Below are positions 7,491 to 17,500 of a stretch of DNA of 64,000 nucleotides, piece after piece. The DNA is from Deferrisoma camini S3R1 (GTDB lineage: Bacteria > Desulfobacterota > Deferrisomatia > Deferrisomatales > Deferrisomataceae). Under the pieces are notes generated by a model. That model worked only from the letters and a program-made list of their open reading frames with translations, made no database searches and was not told the DNA's origin. The position numbers and the translations under genes are program-made. The stretch covers positions 2,009,014-2,073,013 of the forward strand of contig NZ_JAFN01000001.1 of the NCBI RefSeq assembly GCF_000526155.1, read 5' to 3'. Each line of letters opens with the position of its first letter. Position 1 is the stretch's first letter.

Positions 7491-9725
7491 TCAGAAGTAA
7501 GCCTCCCTCGGGAGCGTACGAATGGTGCTGTAGGCCTGCAGGGTCTTCTGGGCGCGCACCAGCAGGTTCTTCACCCGCCCCAGGAGCTCCTCGGAGAACG
7601 CCAGGTTGTGGATCGGGTTGCCCCGCTCGAAGAGCTTCAGGTTCTTCTCGGCGTTGTTCACGAGGTCCTGGGCGTCGTAGGTGTACTTGCCCTCGCGCAT
7701 GGCGCCCAGAATCTTCCGCTGGGTGTCCTGGAGCATGGTGCGCAGTGACTTGACCTCCTCCCGGAGCTGGTCGGCCTTCTTCTTCCACTCGTCCACCATG
7801 GCCCCGTAGGACTCGTCGCCGTCGTGGCACTCCACGCATGCGGCCTTGATCCCGTCCAGGGTGGTGGGTTCCCCCTCGACCACCTGCACGTGGCAGTCGC
7901 TGCACTCGACGGCGTCGGCCATGGGGTTCTTCTCGCCGCGCACGTCGCAGCTCTTCTCGTCGCAGGCGTTCTGGCCGTTATAGAGGTTGTGGTTCTCGAC
8001 GTGGCAGTCGCTGCACTCCACCGCGCCCTGGCCCTCGCCGTGGTGACAGTCGTTGCAGTTGCTGAGCCGGGTCTGGCCGTGGTTCTCCCGCGGTGAGTGG
8101 CACTCCAGGCAGTCGAGTCCCTCGTCCTCCACGTGGATGTCGTGGGGGAACGACACGTTGCCGAACGGCACCGGCTTCGTCTCGATGCACTCCACGCACG
8201 AGTGACACAGCTGGGTGCAGCCGGTGGGAGGAGAGACCGGCTGGGCCACGTACCCCGGCTCGGCAGCGGCCTTCGCCTTCTCGGCGCGCTCCTGCACGTC
8301 GGCCAGCACCTTCAGGGCGTAGTCCATGTTGTGCAGGCCCCGGCCCTGGCGCACGAACGCCAGGTTTCGCTCCGCGCCCTCGAGCAGGGCGGTCATCTGT
8401 CCCTTCACATCGGCCGAAGCCTTGCGCACCGCACCCCGGGCGTCGAGGAGGGCCTTCTCCGCCTTGTCCATCTCGCCGGTGAGGAGCTTTTTCCAGTGCT
8501 TGGCCATATCGTCGTACCCGCTGCCGTGGCAATCGACGCAGGACTGGATCACCGCCTCGTAGTTCATCCGAAGGGTCGAGGCGATGCCGGTCGGCGTCTT
8601 CTTCACCGCCACGTGACAGCTGCCGCAGTCGGCGTGGGCCAGGTACATGGGGTTGGGGGTCTGCGGCACGCCCTCGGCCCCCTTGCCCATGTACAGGTTC
8701 CGGGTGGCCTCGTGCTGGTCGAGGGTGTGACACTTCAGGCAGTCGGTGTCGTAATGATAGCCCTTCGTCCTGGGCCGCAGGGCGGCCTGGGCCATCTTTT
8801 TCAGCGCCTTGGGGGTCTCGTCGCCGGGCCGCACGATGTGGTGCTCGATCGCCGAGTGGCACCGGAGGCACTCCACCTTGTACTTGGTCACGTGGTTCCG
8901 GTGGATCTCCTCGCTGGCATACTCCCCGAACAGGATCCGGGGCTCCGAGTGGCACTGCACGCAGGTGTTGTCCTTGAGGTGTCCGTCCCCGAACACCACG
9001 TCGAAGTGGCACTGCTGGCACGCCACGCCGTGGTCCAGGTACTTCTGGTGCACGAACGGCATGTTCTCGTTGGCGTTGATGAACACCTTGGCCCGCAGCT
9101 GGGCATGGCAGAGCTGGCAGTCACTCAGCTCAGGGTTCTCGTCGCGGTTCATGAAGTGGCACACGAAGCAGGTGCTCTCGGTCACGGTCAGATGCTCGCC
9201 CTGCACGATCTGGGAGTGGCAGGTCACGCACCGCAGCTTCTTGCCCCGCCGCAGCTCGCCGAGGTGGCTGCCGTGGCTGAACCTCACGCCCTTGAAGGTG
9301 ATGGTCTTCTCACCCAGGTCCGCCCGGTTGTGGCACCCCTCGCGCAGGCAGCTGGCGTCGCTGATCTGGGTGTGGGGCCGGGTGGGCTCGGTGCCGGTCA
9401 GCTTCATCCACAGGTGCATCTGGGCCTTCCACTTGCCCCGAAGCTCGTTGAACACCCCCGGCTCGAAGTGGCACTCGATACACAGCACGTCCCGATGGCT
9501 CGACTCGGCCCACGACTCGATATAGGGCTGCATGTTATGGCACATGGAGCAGAACTTGGGGGAGGCGGTGGCCTTGAGCATCACGAACAGGCCGGCCACG
9601 GCCACCACGGCCACCACCCCGAGGAACACGAGCATGCCCTTCCAGTGCCGCCGCACCCCCACGACGAGCACCCGCCCGAGGTCGCGAATAAAATCGACCA
9701 TAAGAGAGAACAGTTCCCGAATCAT
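7491..9725 (-). CDS. NapC/NirT-type multihaem cytochrome c (at least 16 haems)
   Basis: The 744-residue protein has a cytoplasmic N-terminus, one transmembrane anchor (about residues 32-52) and a periplasmic haem region. It has 16 CXXCH sites, starting with CSMCH and CIECH as in NapC/NirT quinol oxidases. It also has CLREGCH (CX4CH), CTQLCH (CX3CH) and a CX4CD remnant, so up to 18 haems are possible. Two homologous modules each follow a CXXCH with a long charged helical hairpin (after CVDCH near 400 and after the last CVECH near 637), and both contain an HN motif. It probably takes electrons from menaquinol into periplasmic or extracellular electron transfer (inference). The start ATG has GGAGGGAGG upstream. 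Confidence 0.88.
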   Translation of the reverse strand: MIRELFSLMVDFIRDLGRVLVVGVRRHWKGMLVFLGVVAVVAVAGLFVMLKATASPKFCSMCHNMQPYIESWAESSHRDVLCIECHFEPGVFNELRGKWKAQMHLWMKLTGTEPTRPHTQISDASCLREGCHNRADLGEKTITFKGVRFSHGSHLGELRRGKKLRCVTCHSQIVQGEHLTVTESTCFVCHFMNRDENPELSDCQLCHAQLRAKVFINANENMPFVHQKYLDHGVACQQCHFDVVFGDGHLKDNTCVQCHSEPRILFGEYASEEIHRNHVTKYKVECLRCHSAIEHHIVRPGDETPKALKKMAQAALRPRTKGYHYDTDCLKCHTLDQHEATRNLYMGKGAEGVPQTPNPMYLAHADCGSCHVAVKKTPTGIASTLRMNYEAVIQSCVDCHGSGYDDMAKHWKKLLTGEMDKAEKALLDARGAVRKASADVKGQMTALLEGAERNLAFVRQGRGLHNMDYALKVLADVQERAEKAKAAAEPGYVAQPVSPPTGCTQLCHSCVECIETKPVPFGNVSFPHDIHVEDEGLDCLECHSPRENHGQTRLSNCNDCHHGEGQGAVECSDCHVENHNLYNGQNACDEKSCDVRGEKNPMADAVECSDCHVQVVEGEPTTLDGIKAACVECHDGDESYGAMVDEWKKKADQLREEVKSLRTMLQDTQRKILGAMREGKYTYDAQDLVNNAEKNLKLFERGNPIHNLAFSEELLGRVKNLLVRAQKTLQAYSTIRTLPREAYF

Positions 9726-9863: not shown

Positions 9864-9903
9864 CAATTCCGACTTCAACAGTCTTGTTCATTGAGTCGGA
9901 TTG
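9864..9903. promoter_or_regulatory. Inverted repeat between divergent cytochrome genes
   Basis: CAATTCCGACTTCAA (9864-9878) is repeated inverted as TTGAGTCGGATTG (9891-9903), with one unpaired base in each half of the longer arm. It lies in the 273-bp divergent region between two c-type cytochrome genes. It could be a shared regulator site or a transcript hairpin; no other gene is visible there. Confidence 0.4.
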
Positions 9904-9998
9904 TGTATTGAAACAGCAAGAAATCAGCTCCTCCTAGGAACCGGCCCTGGTATCTGGTACGGTACGGCCACGCATCAGCCGAGGAAAAGGAGGAACCC

Positions 9999-11339
9999 GT
10001 GCGACGAGTCCTGGCGACCCTTCTCGTGCTCCTAGCCGTTGCCGCGACGTCCGCGCGGGCGGCCCGCCCCGCGCTCATCCTGCTGTACACGGCCGACGAG
10101 CGAGGAGAGGTCCTTCCCTGCGGGTGAAAGAAGAACCCGCGGGGCGGTCTGGCCAAGCGAGCAACCTATGTGGAGGCGGCGCGCACCCAGGGGCCGGTCC
10201 TCCTGGTGAACGCCGGGAACTGCCTGTTCAAACGGGAGCGGATCCCGGCCCGGAAGGTCCCCGAGGCCCGGGAGATCGCCCGGCTCATGGTGGATGCCTA
10301 CAACGAGATGGGGCTGGCGGCGATGGGGGTGGGGGCCTACGACCTGTCGTTGGGCGTGGACTTCCTGCTGGAGCTGGGCCGGCGAGCCCGTTTCCCCCTT
10401 CTGTGCGCCAACCTCACGGACCCCCACGGCACCCCCTACTTCCCCGCGTACCGCGTCGTGGAGGCGGGGGGCTTGCGCGTCGCCCTGGTGGGCCTGATCG
10501 ACGATCGCCTCAAGCGCGGCCACATCCCCGGGGGCCGCAAGGTGGTCGTGGCGCCCCCGCTGGAAACAGCAGCTCGGGTGATTCCCCGCGTGGCCGAGGA
10601 AGGGCCCGATCTGGTCGTGGTGCTGACCGACATGACCGAGCGGCGGCTACGGCTGCTGGCCCGGAGAGGGCTGCCCGTGGATCTGGTGGTGGGCACGTCC
10701 CGACGCAATCAACTGTCGGTGCCGTTCCGTCTGAAGGGAACCCTGATCGTCGCGCTGGATCGCAGGGGCAAGACCCTGGGTCGGGTGGACGTGATCCCGA
10801 AGAAGGGCGGAGGGTACGAGCTTCGGAACAGCTTCGTCCCCCTGCTCCAGAAGAGATACCCGGATCATCCGCGGGTGGGGTCGATGGTTCGAGAGGTGCT
10901 GACCCGGATCCGGTCCCTGCAGGCCCAGGCCATCCCTGAGGAGGCGGAAAGGGGAGAAGAGGGGTGCGGCCAGGACTACGTGGGCGCCGAGACCTGCCGT
11001 CGGTGCCACGGCAGGCGCTACGCCCACTGGAAGCGCACCCCCCATGCCCGGGCCTACGAGACGCTTCGGGCCAAGGGAAAGGAACTCGACACCGACTGCC
11101 TGGCCTGCCACACGGTGGCGTTCGAGTGCAGCAATGGCAAACCCGACCGCCGGAGCATGGAGCAGTTCCCCGGCGTCCAGTGCGAGTCGTGCCACGGCCC
11201 CGGTTCGGCGCACGCCGCGTCCGAGGGCCGCACCCCGGTGGAGCCGGGCCTCGTCTGCGCCAAGTGCCACACCCGAGATCGGAGCGACACCGAGCGGATC
11301 GAGGATCGTGCCTCAGAAGCCTGCGCGGAGACCGACTGA
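9999..11339 (+). CDS. Probable selenoprotein: UshA/metallophosphatase-like domain fused to tetrahaem cytochrome c554-like domain
   Basis: The gene reads 447 codons from GTG 9999 (AAAAGGAGG upstream), with one in-frame TGA at 10125-10127 (codon 43). A signal peptide (about residues 1-21) is followed by LLYTADERGEVLPCG-U-KKNPRGG. This matches the N-terminal block of 5'-nucleotidase/metallophosphatase-like proteins that usually read PCGC in this position (family knowledge). Homology continues uninterrupted after the TGA, and a SECIS-like hairpin lies at the correct distance. The usual metal-binding DXH is not conserved (TADERG), so the domain may not be a phosphatase. The C-terminal part (about 320-440) has four CXXCH sites (CRRCH, CLACH, CESCH, CAKCH) as in cytochrome c554. 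The product should be periplasmic. Function is unknown; a redox role of Cys-Gly-Sec is an inference. Confidence 0.85.
10125..10159 (+). promoter_or_regulatory. UGA plus bacterial SECIS-like hairpin
   Basis: TGA at 10125-10127 is followed by exactly 18 nt and then GGTCTG (10146-10151), the same spacing and loop core (GGUCU) as E. coli fdhF. The stem is formed by 10143-10145 with 10152-10154 and 10138-10140 with 10157-10159. These are separated by a GG/AA internal loop that could form tandem G-A pairs. The lower stem is short, so folding needs testing. Confidence 0.75.
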
Positions 11340-13945: not shown

Positions 13946-16900
13946 TCAGGGAGTTACCGGCACGAACCGCACGGCGTCGGCCGAAGCCTGGCCGTTCTCG
14001 CCCGACACCTCCACGTATCCGGACTCACCCGCGTCGAACCGCCACCGGCCGAGGTGCTGCCATACCCCTCCGCCGGTGCGCTGGTCCACCGTGGTCTCCC
14101 AAACCCCATCGGCGTACCCCACGCGCACCGGCACCCGAGCCGAGCGTCCGGCCGAGGAGGTCCACCACAGGTACACGTCGTACTCGCCCGCTGCCGGGAG
14201 AAACGGGCTCCATCGGTACCGGTCGGTCCCGTATCCCGGACAGTAGAGGCTGTCGCCGTCATGGCCGCCGGGTGCGGACGAGAGCCTCCACACCCCGCTT
14301 TGGGTGGTCCCCGGATCCCCGTCGTCCAGGACCACGGCCTCCCCTCCCGGCGGGGGAGGCTCCGGGGGCGGAGGTTCCGGCGGCGGGGGCTGCGGCGGGG
14401 GAATGCTCAGGTCGCCCACGCGGACGAAGAGAACGGCGTCGGCCGAGGCCTGGCCGTTCTCGCCCGTGATCTTCACGTAGCCCCCGGTACCCTGGAAGAA
14501 GTCCCACTCTCCGATCAGGTTCCACTGCCCGCCCTTCTGGGTCTGGTCCACGGTGGTCTGGTACTGCCCGGCGGCGTGGCCCACGAGCACGGGGACCCGA
14601 GTGGAGCGTCCCGCCCCTTCGGTCCACCACATTAGGACCTGGTACCGCCCGTCCTCCGGCAGGTTCGGCGTCCACCGGTAGGTGTCGCCGGGTCTGCCGG
14701 AGCAGTAGAGGCTGTCCACCCCGTAGGGCTGGGGCGCGTGGGACACGAACCAGTAACCGGTGCTTTCCGTGCCCGGATCGCCGTTGTCCACCACGACCGA
14801 CACCGTCGGCGTGGGCTCGGGCTCCGGTGGAGGGGGCTCGGGGGGCGGGGGCTCCGGCGGAGGCGCTCCCCCGGCCGACACGAATCGGACCGCGTCGGCC
14901 GAAGCCTGGCCGTTCTTGCCCGAGATCTCCACGTATCCCGAGCTGCCGGCGTCGAAGGTCCACCGGCCGAGCAGGTTCCACGTGGATCCGTTCGTGGTCT
15001 GGTCCACCTCGAGCTCGGAGGTCCCGCCGGCATGGGACACGAGCACGGGGACCCGGGAGCTGCGGCCGCCGCTGGCCGTCCACCAGAGATACACGTCGTA
15101 GCTGCCCGCGGTGGGCAGGTCCGGGGCCCAGCGATACCAGTCCGTGGGGTAACCCACGCAGTACAGGCTGTCGCCGCCGTACCCTCCCGCGATCGAGCTT
15201 TGCCTCCATAGCCCGCCCGAGGTCGTTCCGGGGTCCCCGTCGTCCAGCACCACCTCCACGGGCGGACCGGGAGGCGTGGCCGAGCTCACCGTGACCACCA
15301 CCTGGGCCGTGCCCACGGCCCCGTCTGGATCCGTCACCTCGTAGGAGAACCGATCCTCCCCCACGAACCCCGGATCCGGTGTGTACCGAACGGTGGACGC
15401 GGACATCACCTCTGCCACGCCGCTCGAGGGCGAGCCCACCGAGGCCACGGACAGGGCATCCCCATCCGGGTCGGTGTCGTTGGCCGTGACCACGATCGCC
15501 ACGGCCTGGCCCTCCACGGTGGACGCCGTGTCGTCCTGCGGCCTGGGCGCATCGTTCACGGGAAGCACGTTCACCGTGACCCGGGCCTGGGCCGCGCCCC
15601 CGTGCCCGTCGTCCACTGTGTAGACGAACCCGTCCTCCCCCCAGTAGTCGGGAGCGGGGGTGTAGAGCACCCGGTCCCCTCGAACCTCGGCCGTGCCGTG
15701 CAGCGGTGCGTCCACCGATACCAGGCTCAAGGCGTCCCCGTCGGGATCGGTGTCGTTGGCCAGCACGTCCACCTCGACCGGTGTGTCCTCGGCGGTCTCG
15801 GCCGCATCGTCCAGGGGCTCCGGCGGATTGTTCGCCGGGCCCTCCACGGCCACGAAACGCACGGCATCGGCCGAGGCCTGCCCGTTGTCGCCCGACACCT
15901 CCACGTACCCGATCATCCCGGCCGGGAACGTCCACGTTCCCAGGTAGTTCCACCGGCTTCCGTTCTGGGTCTGATCGACCTCCCCCTGCCAGATTCCCCC
16001 GGCGTGCCGGACCCTCACGGGCACCCGAGTGCTCCGGCCCCGGCTGGCGACCCACCACAGGTACACTTCGTATTCCCCGGACGCCGGAAGCGAGGGCGTC
16101 CATCGGTACACGTCGCCGTCGTACCCGGAGGTGTACAGGCTGTCTCCCTCGTAGCCCCCCGCCACCGACGACGGGGACCAGACCCCCTGGGACCAGGTCC
16201 CTGCATCCCCGTCGTCGATCACGATTCCTCCTTCGGGAGGAGGCTCCGGCGGGGGCTCGGGAGGCGGCGGGGGCGGCGGCGGAGTGCCCCCGGCCGCGGC
16301 CACCGCGGCCCCCACGTCCACCAGGCCGTACCCGTAGTAGGCGTCCCACCCGGCGATCCCCTTATCGGTTGCGGTCGCCACGAGGACCGACTCCACCTCG
16401 TCCGCCGAGGAGACCCCCAGGGCCTTCAGCAGCGCTGCCGCCGCGGACACGTGGGGGGCCGCCATGCTGGTGCCGCTCCACGACTGATACGTGAAATATC
16501 CGGGGTTGCGCATGTACAGGGTCTGCTGGACGATGCCCTCTCCCACCCCGCCCCCCGGCGCCACGAGGTCGAGCGTGGGGCCGTAGTTGCTGTAGGGCGC
16601 CCGAAGCCCGTTGCTGCCCACCGCCCCCACCGAGATGCACACGTCGTTGTACCTTGCCGGGTACCCCACCGGCCCGGCGTCGTTCCCCACCGCGGCCACG
16701 ACCACCACGTCCCGTCCCCACGCGTATCGCAGGGCGTCATAGAGGGCGGAGGACGGCTCGTCGCCGGTGATGCTCAGGTTGATCACCTGTGCCCCGTGGT
16801 CCACGGCCCAGTAGATGGCCCTCACGACGTCGCTGTACAGCCCCGTGCCGTCCGCGCCGAGGGCCTTCAGGGGCATCACGGCCGAGCGGAACGCGATGCC

Positions 16901-17500
16901 GCTCACCCCCTCGCCGTTGTCGGTGGTCTCGGCGATGGTCCCTGCCACGTGGGTCCCGTGGCCGTTGTCATCGTTCGGGTGGGCGTCGTCGTTGACGAAG
17001 TCGTAGCCCGGCACGAACACGGTTCCCGAGAAGTCGGGCGCCTTCCGGTACACCCCGTAGTCCTCGTAGGCCACGCCCGTGTCCACCACCGCCACCACCA
17101 CCGACGCGTCGCCGCCCCGGATCACGTCCCACGCATCGTCCACGCCGATGAGGCGGAAGTTCCACTGCTTCGACCACAAGGGGTCGTTGGGCACCCACAC
17201 CGCCCGGATCCAGTGGTCCGGCTCCACGTACTCCACCTGGGGCAGCCGGGACAGCTGCTCCAGAACCTTCTGGGCCGGCAGCCCCGGGGGCGCCTGGACC
17301 GTCCGGAACCTCCCGTGACCGAAGGCGGGGCCGAACCGGTACCCCCGGCCTGCGGCCTGGGCCAGGGAAGAGGTGGCCACCAGTCCCGACCGGGTCTTCA
17401 CGATGAACCGTCCCGGGGGGCCCTTTGGAGCCGCCAGGGCCTCCGCACCGACCATCAACAAAGCCACTGCCGCAATGCTGCACCAACCGAGCCTTCCCAT
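13946..17500 (-). CDS. Secreted subtilisin-family (S8) protease with four golvesin-like and two cadherin-like domains
   Basis: The 1184-residue protein has a signal peptide (about 1-24), a propeptide-like segment and a subtilase domain. Catalytic residues are Asp140 (VVDTG), His181 (NGHGTHVAG) and Ser345 (SGTSMAAP). A PPPEP-rich linker follows, then a golvesin-like module at about 425-560, two tandem NDTDPDGDALS-type cadherin/VCBS-like domains (565-750), and three more golvesin-like modules near 747-878, 900-1030 and 1053-1184, separated by PPPEP linkers. Each module contains D-DGDPGT, YRW-P-LP, YDVYLWW and NGQASADAVRF patterns. RBS GGGAGGACAGTC precedes the ATG. It is the last gene after the usher-like gene (42 bp gap) and may process or decorate the surface fibre (inference). 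Confidence 0.92.
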   Translation of the reverse strand: MGRLGWCSIAAVALLMVGAEALAAPKGPPGRFIVKTRSGLVATSSLAQAAGRGYRFGPAFGHGRFRTVQAPPGLPAQKVLEQLSRLPQVEYVEPDHWIRAVWVPNDPLWSKQWNFRLIGVDDAWDVIRGGDASVVVAVVDTGVAYEDYGVYRKAPDFSGTVFVPGYDFVNDDAHPNDDNGHGTHVAGTIAETTDNGEGVSGIAFRSAVMPLKALGADGTGLYSDVVRAIYWAVDHGAQVINLSITGDEPSSALYDALRYAWGRDVVVVAAVGNDAGPVGYPARYNDVCISVGAVGSNGLRAPYSNYGPTLDLVAPGGGVGEGIVQQTLYMRNPGYFTYQSWSGTSMAAPHVSAAAALLKALGVSSADEVESVLVATATDKGIAGWDAYYGYGLVDVGAAVAAAGGTPPPPPPPPEPPPEPPPEGGIVIDDGDAGTWSQGVWSPSSVAGGYEGDSLYTSGYDGDVYRWTPSLPASGEYEVYLWWVASRGRSTRVPVRVRHAGGIWQGEVDQTQNGSRWNYLGTWTFPAGMIGYVEVSGDNGQASADAVRFVAVEGPANNPPEPLDDAAETAEDTPVEVDVLANDTDPDGDALSLVSVDAPLHGTAEVRGDRVLYTPAPDYWGEDGFVYTVDDGHGGAAQARVTVNVLPVNDAPRPQDDTASTVEGQAVAIVVTANDTDPDGDALSVASVGSPSSGVAEVMSASTVRYTPDPGFVGEDRFSYEVTDPDGAVGTAQVVVTVSSATPPGPPVEVVLDDGDPGTTSGGLWRQSSIAGGYGGDSLYCVGYPTDWYRWAPDLPTAGSYDVYLWWTASGGRSSRVPVLVSHAGGTSELEVDQTTNGSTWNLLGRWTFDAGSSGYVEISGKNGQASADAVRFVSAGGAPPPEPPPPEPPPPEPEPTPTVSVVVDNGDPGTESTGYWFVSHAPQPYGVDSLYCSGRPGDTYRWTPNLPEDGRYQVLMWWTEGAGRSTRVPVLVGHAAGQYQTTVDQTQKGGQWNLIGEWDFFQGTGGYVKITGENGQASADAVLFVRVGDLSIPPPQPPPPEPPPPEPPPPGGEAVVLDDGDPGTTQSGVWRLSSAPGGHDGDSLYCPGYGTDRYRWSPFLPAAGEYDVYLWWTSSAGRSARVPVRVGYADGVWETTVDQRTGGGVWQHLGRWRFDAGESGYVEVSGENGQASADAVRFVPVTP

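Follow-up and report, generated by a model that had tools for sequence, protein, structure and literature searches.

The gene at positions 9999-11339 (+) of the window, by which we mean the whole analysed stretch of 64,000 nucleotides from Deferrisoma camini S3R1, almost certainly encodes selenocysteine (Sec) at an in-frame UGA (10125), as judged by comparison with its relatives. The protein is an additional member of a selenoprotein family that was described in 2008. Two features of it look new: the metal site appears to be lost in its phosphatase-like part, and the gene adjoins genes for respiratory cytochromes. The overall best explanation, which we consider likely, is that the protein is a haem-wired periplasmic selenenylsulfide oxidoreductase.

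Reading frame and domain layout

The frame spans 447 codons including a terminal TGA, and its single internal stop is the TGA at 10125-10127 (codon 43), so that with Sec43 the product has 446 residues. It opens with a GTG at 9999 that lies a few bases behind a Shine-Dalgarno-like AAGGAGG in the sequence (9984-9995, +); two other genomes of the genus share both this start and the Shine-Dalgarno sequence. An RR pair, a hydrophobic core and the residues ARA suggest a putative signal peptide, MRRVLATLLVLLAVAATSARA, with an AXA-type cleavage site (9999-10061, +). Profile, alignment and fold comparison then place a 5'-nucleotidase/UshA-fold domain without the dinuclear-metal ligands at 10065-10930 (+). 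The motif Cys41-Gly42-Sec43 (TGC GGG TGA; 10119-10127, +) lies within this domain. The C-terminal part is a cytochrome c554-like tetrahaem domain (10959-11336, +), which matches PF13435 with 45.5 bits (gathering cut-off 20.8) and contains four conserved CXXCH motifs at codons 333, 367, 395 and 420.

This layout agrees with the preliminary description, which had reported a frame open except for one TGA, with a signal peptide before it, and a metallophosphatase-like domain fused to a tetrahaem cytochrome. We also reproduced its prediction for a naive gene caller: without readthrough, the open reading frame starts at GTG 10170 and encodes 389 amino acids, thus 57 codons are lost. Selection upstream of the TGA is purifying at codons 23-42 and weak in the signal peptide, in a stretch that is too short for these estimates to carry much weight.

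Selenocysteine at the in-frame UGA

The genome, a single contig of 4.24 Mb, carries a complete set of Sec genes, namely selA, selB, selC (tRNA-Sec, anticodon tca) and selD, the last of which itself contains an in-frame TGA as part of a TCGU motif. To compare the UGA position across the phylum, we searched 395 genomes with the DNA pattern PCG-TGN-...-GGLA, which permitted any TGN codon (TGC, TGT and TGG as well) after P-C-G. The pattern matched at 72 places and all 72 have TGA; a reversed-pattern control gave two matches in the same 395 genomes. A looser profile search also recovers relatives without TGA. Of those whose sequences we inspected, nearly all have a Cys motif, either CGC or CxxC, and several retain all four haems. 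The preliminary description had expected relatives to read PCGC as a rule; the proportions are the reverse, with Cys forms in the minority. Its expectation that Cys or Sec is conserved at this position is borne out by the alignment of homologues.

In a tree of 56 sequences, we count about seven interchanges between Sec and Cys, at least two of which are forced by well-supported branches. Such a pattern, as read from the sequences, is the usual behaviour of selenoprotein families. Three genomes of the genus and members of dozens of genera share the TGA of the window gene. A scan of genome contigs for close relatives recovered only two same-genus loci. Protein similarity that continues across the TGA in dozens of genomes is not due to chance, and a TGA in many independent genomes is not a sequencing error. 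The Sec machinery, the conservation of the TGA, the exchange with Cys and the codon constraint described below together support Sec at the UGA and the Cys-Gly-Sec motif, both of which had been proposed from the window alone.

Some relatives depart from the common form. One four-haem member (L141, on G119:C168) has Ser-Gly-Arg for Cys-Gly-Sec, with CGA at the TGA position, which reflects either a natural loss of the motif or a mistake in the draft sequence. The window genome itself contains a second UshA-like selenoprotein with a TGA and four haems (G000:C1:3593582-3594925; L062:6523-7983) that belongs to a separate clade. Furthermore, there are side branches with a spaced motif (L032, L034, L038, L040, L144, L146-L148 and L150-L152), which reads CPTU, CPSU or CHAU in Sec forms and CxxC in forms that have no TGA; most of them lack haems.

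SECIS element

We found a candidate bacterial SECIS hairpin inside the coding sequence, CGC-gg-GGC[GGUCUG]GCC-aa-GCG (10138-10159, +). Its loop sequence GGTCTG starts 18 nt after the TGA (10146), a spacing identical to that in Escherichia coli fdhF, for which the reference sequence that we used matches in 5,368 E. coli genomes. This supports the SECIS position that had been noticed before. The predicted fold contains the hairpin with the GGUCUG loop; its stability is no better than that of shuffled sequence in the window (z -0.15). Across members, the stability is likewise weak (mean z -0.5 compared to synonymous shuffles), and an Rfam search of 9900-10500 returned no SECIS match. As the folding energy is not significant alone, the case for the SECIS element rests on the constraint on the loop codons.

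This constraint is visible both against the rest of the gene and against relatives without Sec. Among 47 distinct Sec members, which are related sequences so that the counts are not independent, Gly50 is encoded by GGT in 45 (8.4 expected from the same genes), Ala52 by GCC in 46 (23 expected), Gly49 by GGC in 38 (18.5 expected) and Leu51 by CTN in all 47. In 14 members without the TGA, the same codons (GGC GGT CTN GCC) are relaxed: GGT is found in 4/14 and GCC in 1/14, and TTG occurs. The member with CGA for TGA reads GGA GGG CTC GCA in this region. Judged from these codons, the constraint follows the UGA.

Membership in a known selenoprotein family

The preliminary description had called the selenoprotein unrecognised. 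This claim fails because the protein passes the curated cut-off of NCBIfam NF041198, "UshA-like (seleno)protein" (325.6 bits, cut-off 275), and because the family has been catalogued in the literature. In 2008, a survey of ocean metagenomes counted 76 sequences of a CxU UshA-like selenoprotein (PMC2398784), and the COG0737 UshA-like CxU selenoprotein is also included in two reviews (PMC9312934, PMC13188914). The PCGU with in-frame TGA that characterizes NF041198 is present as PCG-TGA at 10116-10127. Its multihaem part (model positions ~350-515) is matched at G000:C1:2019834-2020304, and the protein has four CXXCH. The window protein shares the PCGU, the UshA-like N-terminus and the multihaem C-terminus with the PCGU form of the family, and we see nothing that distinguishes it. 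When we looked in the literature for functional work on NF041198, we found surveys only, and no function is assigned in the surveys searched.

Two further families can be compared. UshA-like (seleno)protein family 2 (NF049981) is related over the N-terminal 80 residues including the Sec loop (35.4 bits, below the cut-off of 140), but has the spacing CxxU compared to CxU in the window protein; the side branches with spaced motifs are possibly nearer to this family. ExtKL (NF040886) is another multihaem cytochrome family that is listed as a (seleno)protein, and its match involves the haem region only (14.3 bits, cut-off 250).

Loss of the metal ligands in the N-terminal domain

An AlphaFold2 model, calculated from 32 family members (mean pLDDT 86), assigns the N-terminal domain to the 5'-nucleotidase fold. 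It was compared with UshA (Z 33.0, 282 residues aligned, rmsd 2.7 A) and SoxB (Z 30). The Sec loop (residues 42-47) has a pLDDT below 50, and the predicted structure does not fix its position relative to the haems.

We located the metal-ligand positions by alignment to the Thermus 5'-nucleotidase and scored them in 32 members. The Asn and His of the GNHE motif and the His of the first D-x-H motif are each present in 0/32, whereas all 32 retain C41, G42, U43, His349, His405 and each of the four haem motifs; for U43 this is by choice, since the 32 sequences were picked as Sec members. The Asp of the first motif and a later His are variable, and the window protein has R35, N74, A113, Y114 and D211 at the ligand positions. 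The metal site has thus very probably been lost family-wide, as far as aligned residues can tell. With the ligands gone, the Cys-Gly-Sec motif is probably the working site, and the invariance of this motif and of the haem motifs suggests that Cys-Gly-Sec and haem have taken over the conserved chemistry from the metals.

E. coli UshA and the 5'-nucleotidases have the metallophosphatase fold in common with the N-terminal domain, whereas the window protein has lost their ligands, has no detected 5'-nucleotidase C-terminal domain and instead carries Cys-Gly-Sec and four haems. The thiosulfohydrolase SoxB has the same fold and is also periplasmic, but the window protein lacks its Mn site.

Haem domain and gene neighbourhood

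Cytochrome c554 contains four CXXCH, as does the C-terminal domain of the window protein; in contrast to cytochrome c554, this domain is fused to a selenoprotein domain, and we saw no context of hydroxylamine oxidation. Several relatives are without any haem domain, thus haem wiring is not required across the whole superfamily.

Next to the selenoprotein gene, we find a divergent gene for a 744-aa NapC/NirT-type cytochrome (7491-9725, -) with 16 CXXCH in the window copy; no NCBIfam model scores above its cut-off for this protein. In the window clade, 12 loci have a gene of this type (~744 aa) close to that of the selenoprotein, usually adjacent and divergent. In 8 of the 12 loci, a CbcL-like gene is also nearby. 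One of these (L045:1884-3716) combines nine CXXCH with a cytochrome b domain, for which the matches to PF01292 and TIGR01583 are both below cut-off. Nine CXXCH with an FdnI/HydC-like cytochrome b is the layout described for Geobacter CbcL (PMC6295460), and it is by this described layout that we liken the protein to CbcL. In the window genome, the CbcL-like gene is located elsewhere (75% identity). The window additionally contains a cytochrome b-like stretch (164-772, +) that is 31-35% identical to the CbcL-like b domain and, according to its translated open reading frame, a large subtilase-like protease whose C-terminal domains are repeated (13946-17500, -).

The cytochrome neighbourhood is confined to the window clade, whereas other members adjoin unrelated genes. 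The second clade, to which the second copy in the window genome belongs (G000:C1:3593582), has different neighbours on the glnE side. The conserved genes there encode GlnE, a response regulator, a LysM protein and an RfaE domain, and gave no functional lead.

Proposed function and alternative explanations

We propose the following mechanism. As the comparison with relatives shows, SelB almost certainly inserts Sec at UGA 10125 with the help of the SECIS hairpin inside the coding sequence, whose GGUCUG loop lies 18 nt downstream. After export to the periplasm, the protein would carry four c-type haems on its C-terminal domain. The N-terminal domain keeps the 5'-nucleotidase fold and very probably no longer binds two metals, so the protein would not be a phosphatase. 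Cys41 and Sec43 may form a reversible selenenylsulfide that trades electrons with the tetrahaem domain, and we consider such a redox role of the motif quite probable. In the window clade, electrons would most likely pass from the quinol pool via the 16-haem NapC/NirT-type cytochrome and the CbcL-like cytochrome b to the haems, a wiring to which we give an even chance. The Sec motif would then most likely reduce a substrate in the periplasm that is of a sulfur, selenium or disulfide type. Here, substrate and direction are guesses, and we hold the reductive direction and the substrate class only tentatively.

Other explanations start from the same observations. Sec might be real and the motif might bind a soft metal such as Hg, As or Cu, in a cytochrome for metal binding or detoxification. 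C-x-U pairs readily bind soft metals, and a thiol/selenol pair could hold a metal in the site vacated by the phosphatase ligands. Yet several lineages have Cys in place of Sec and retain the haem domain, as is seen in redox motifs, and the conserved neighbours include no metal-resistance gene family, so we regard metal binding as unlikely. A hydrolase of the SoxB/UshA kind would give Sec the role of a nucleophile or of a residue to which a sulfur carrier docks, with the cytochrome accepting electrons as in sulfur oxidation. SoxB is known to form a disulfide-linked complex with SoxYZ (4uwq), and the fold and a weak match to the SoxB model TIGR04486 (40.6 bits) point in this direction. However, this score falls far short of the cut-off of 550, and the metal ligands that hydrolysis needs are absent in 32/32 members, which makes a hydrolase improbable.

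A more basic objection is that the UGA could be a true stop, with a shorter protein made from GTG 10170 as a result of a pseudogene, a sequencing error or a recent truncation; the downstream frame of 389 amino acids does have a start codon. We consider this highly improbable, as the same TGA recurs across the genus and dozens of genera and the region before it keeps its sequence, start codon and Shine-Dalgarno, while the loop codons are constrained and the Sec machinery is complete. The recurrence, the upstream conservation and the codon constraint rule out a sequencing error or a pseudogene.

With considerable reservation, the family could be seen as periplasmic respiratory selenoenzymes. On this view, a metallophosphatase that lost its activity would have become a redox enzyme, where Cys-Gly-Sec replaces the metal site and is wired to the quinol pool by the tetrahaem domain, the 16-haem NapC/NirT-type cytochrome and the CbcL-like cytochrome b. 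Gene callers that are blind to UGA recoding would strip the signal peptide and the active site from members of this family. The loss of the metal site, the invariant Cys-Gly-Sec and four haems, and the conserved multihaem neighbours of a quinol-oxidising type make this family a candidate haem-wired selenoenzyme that can be tested.
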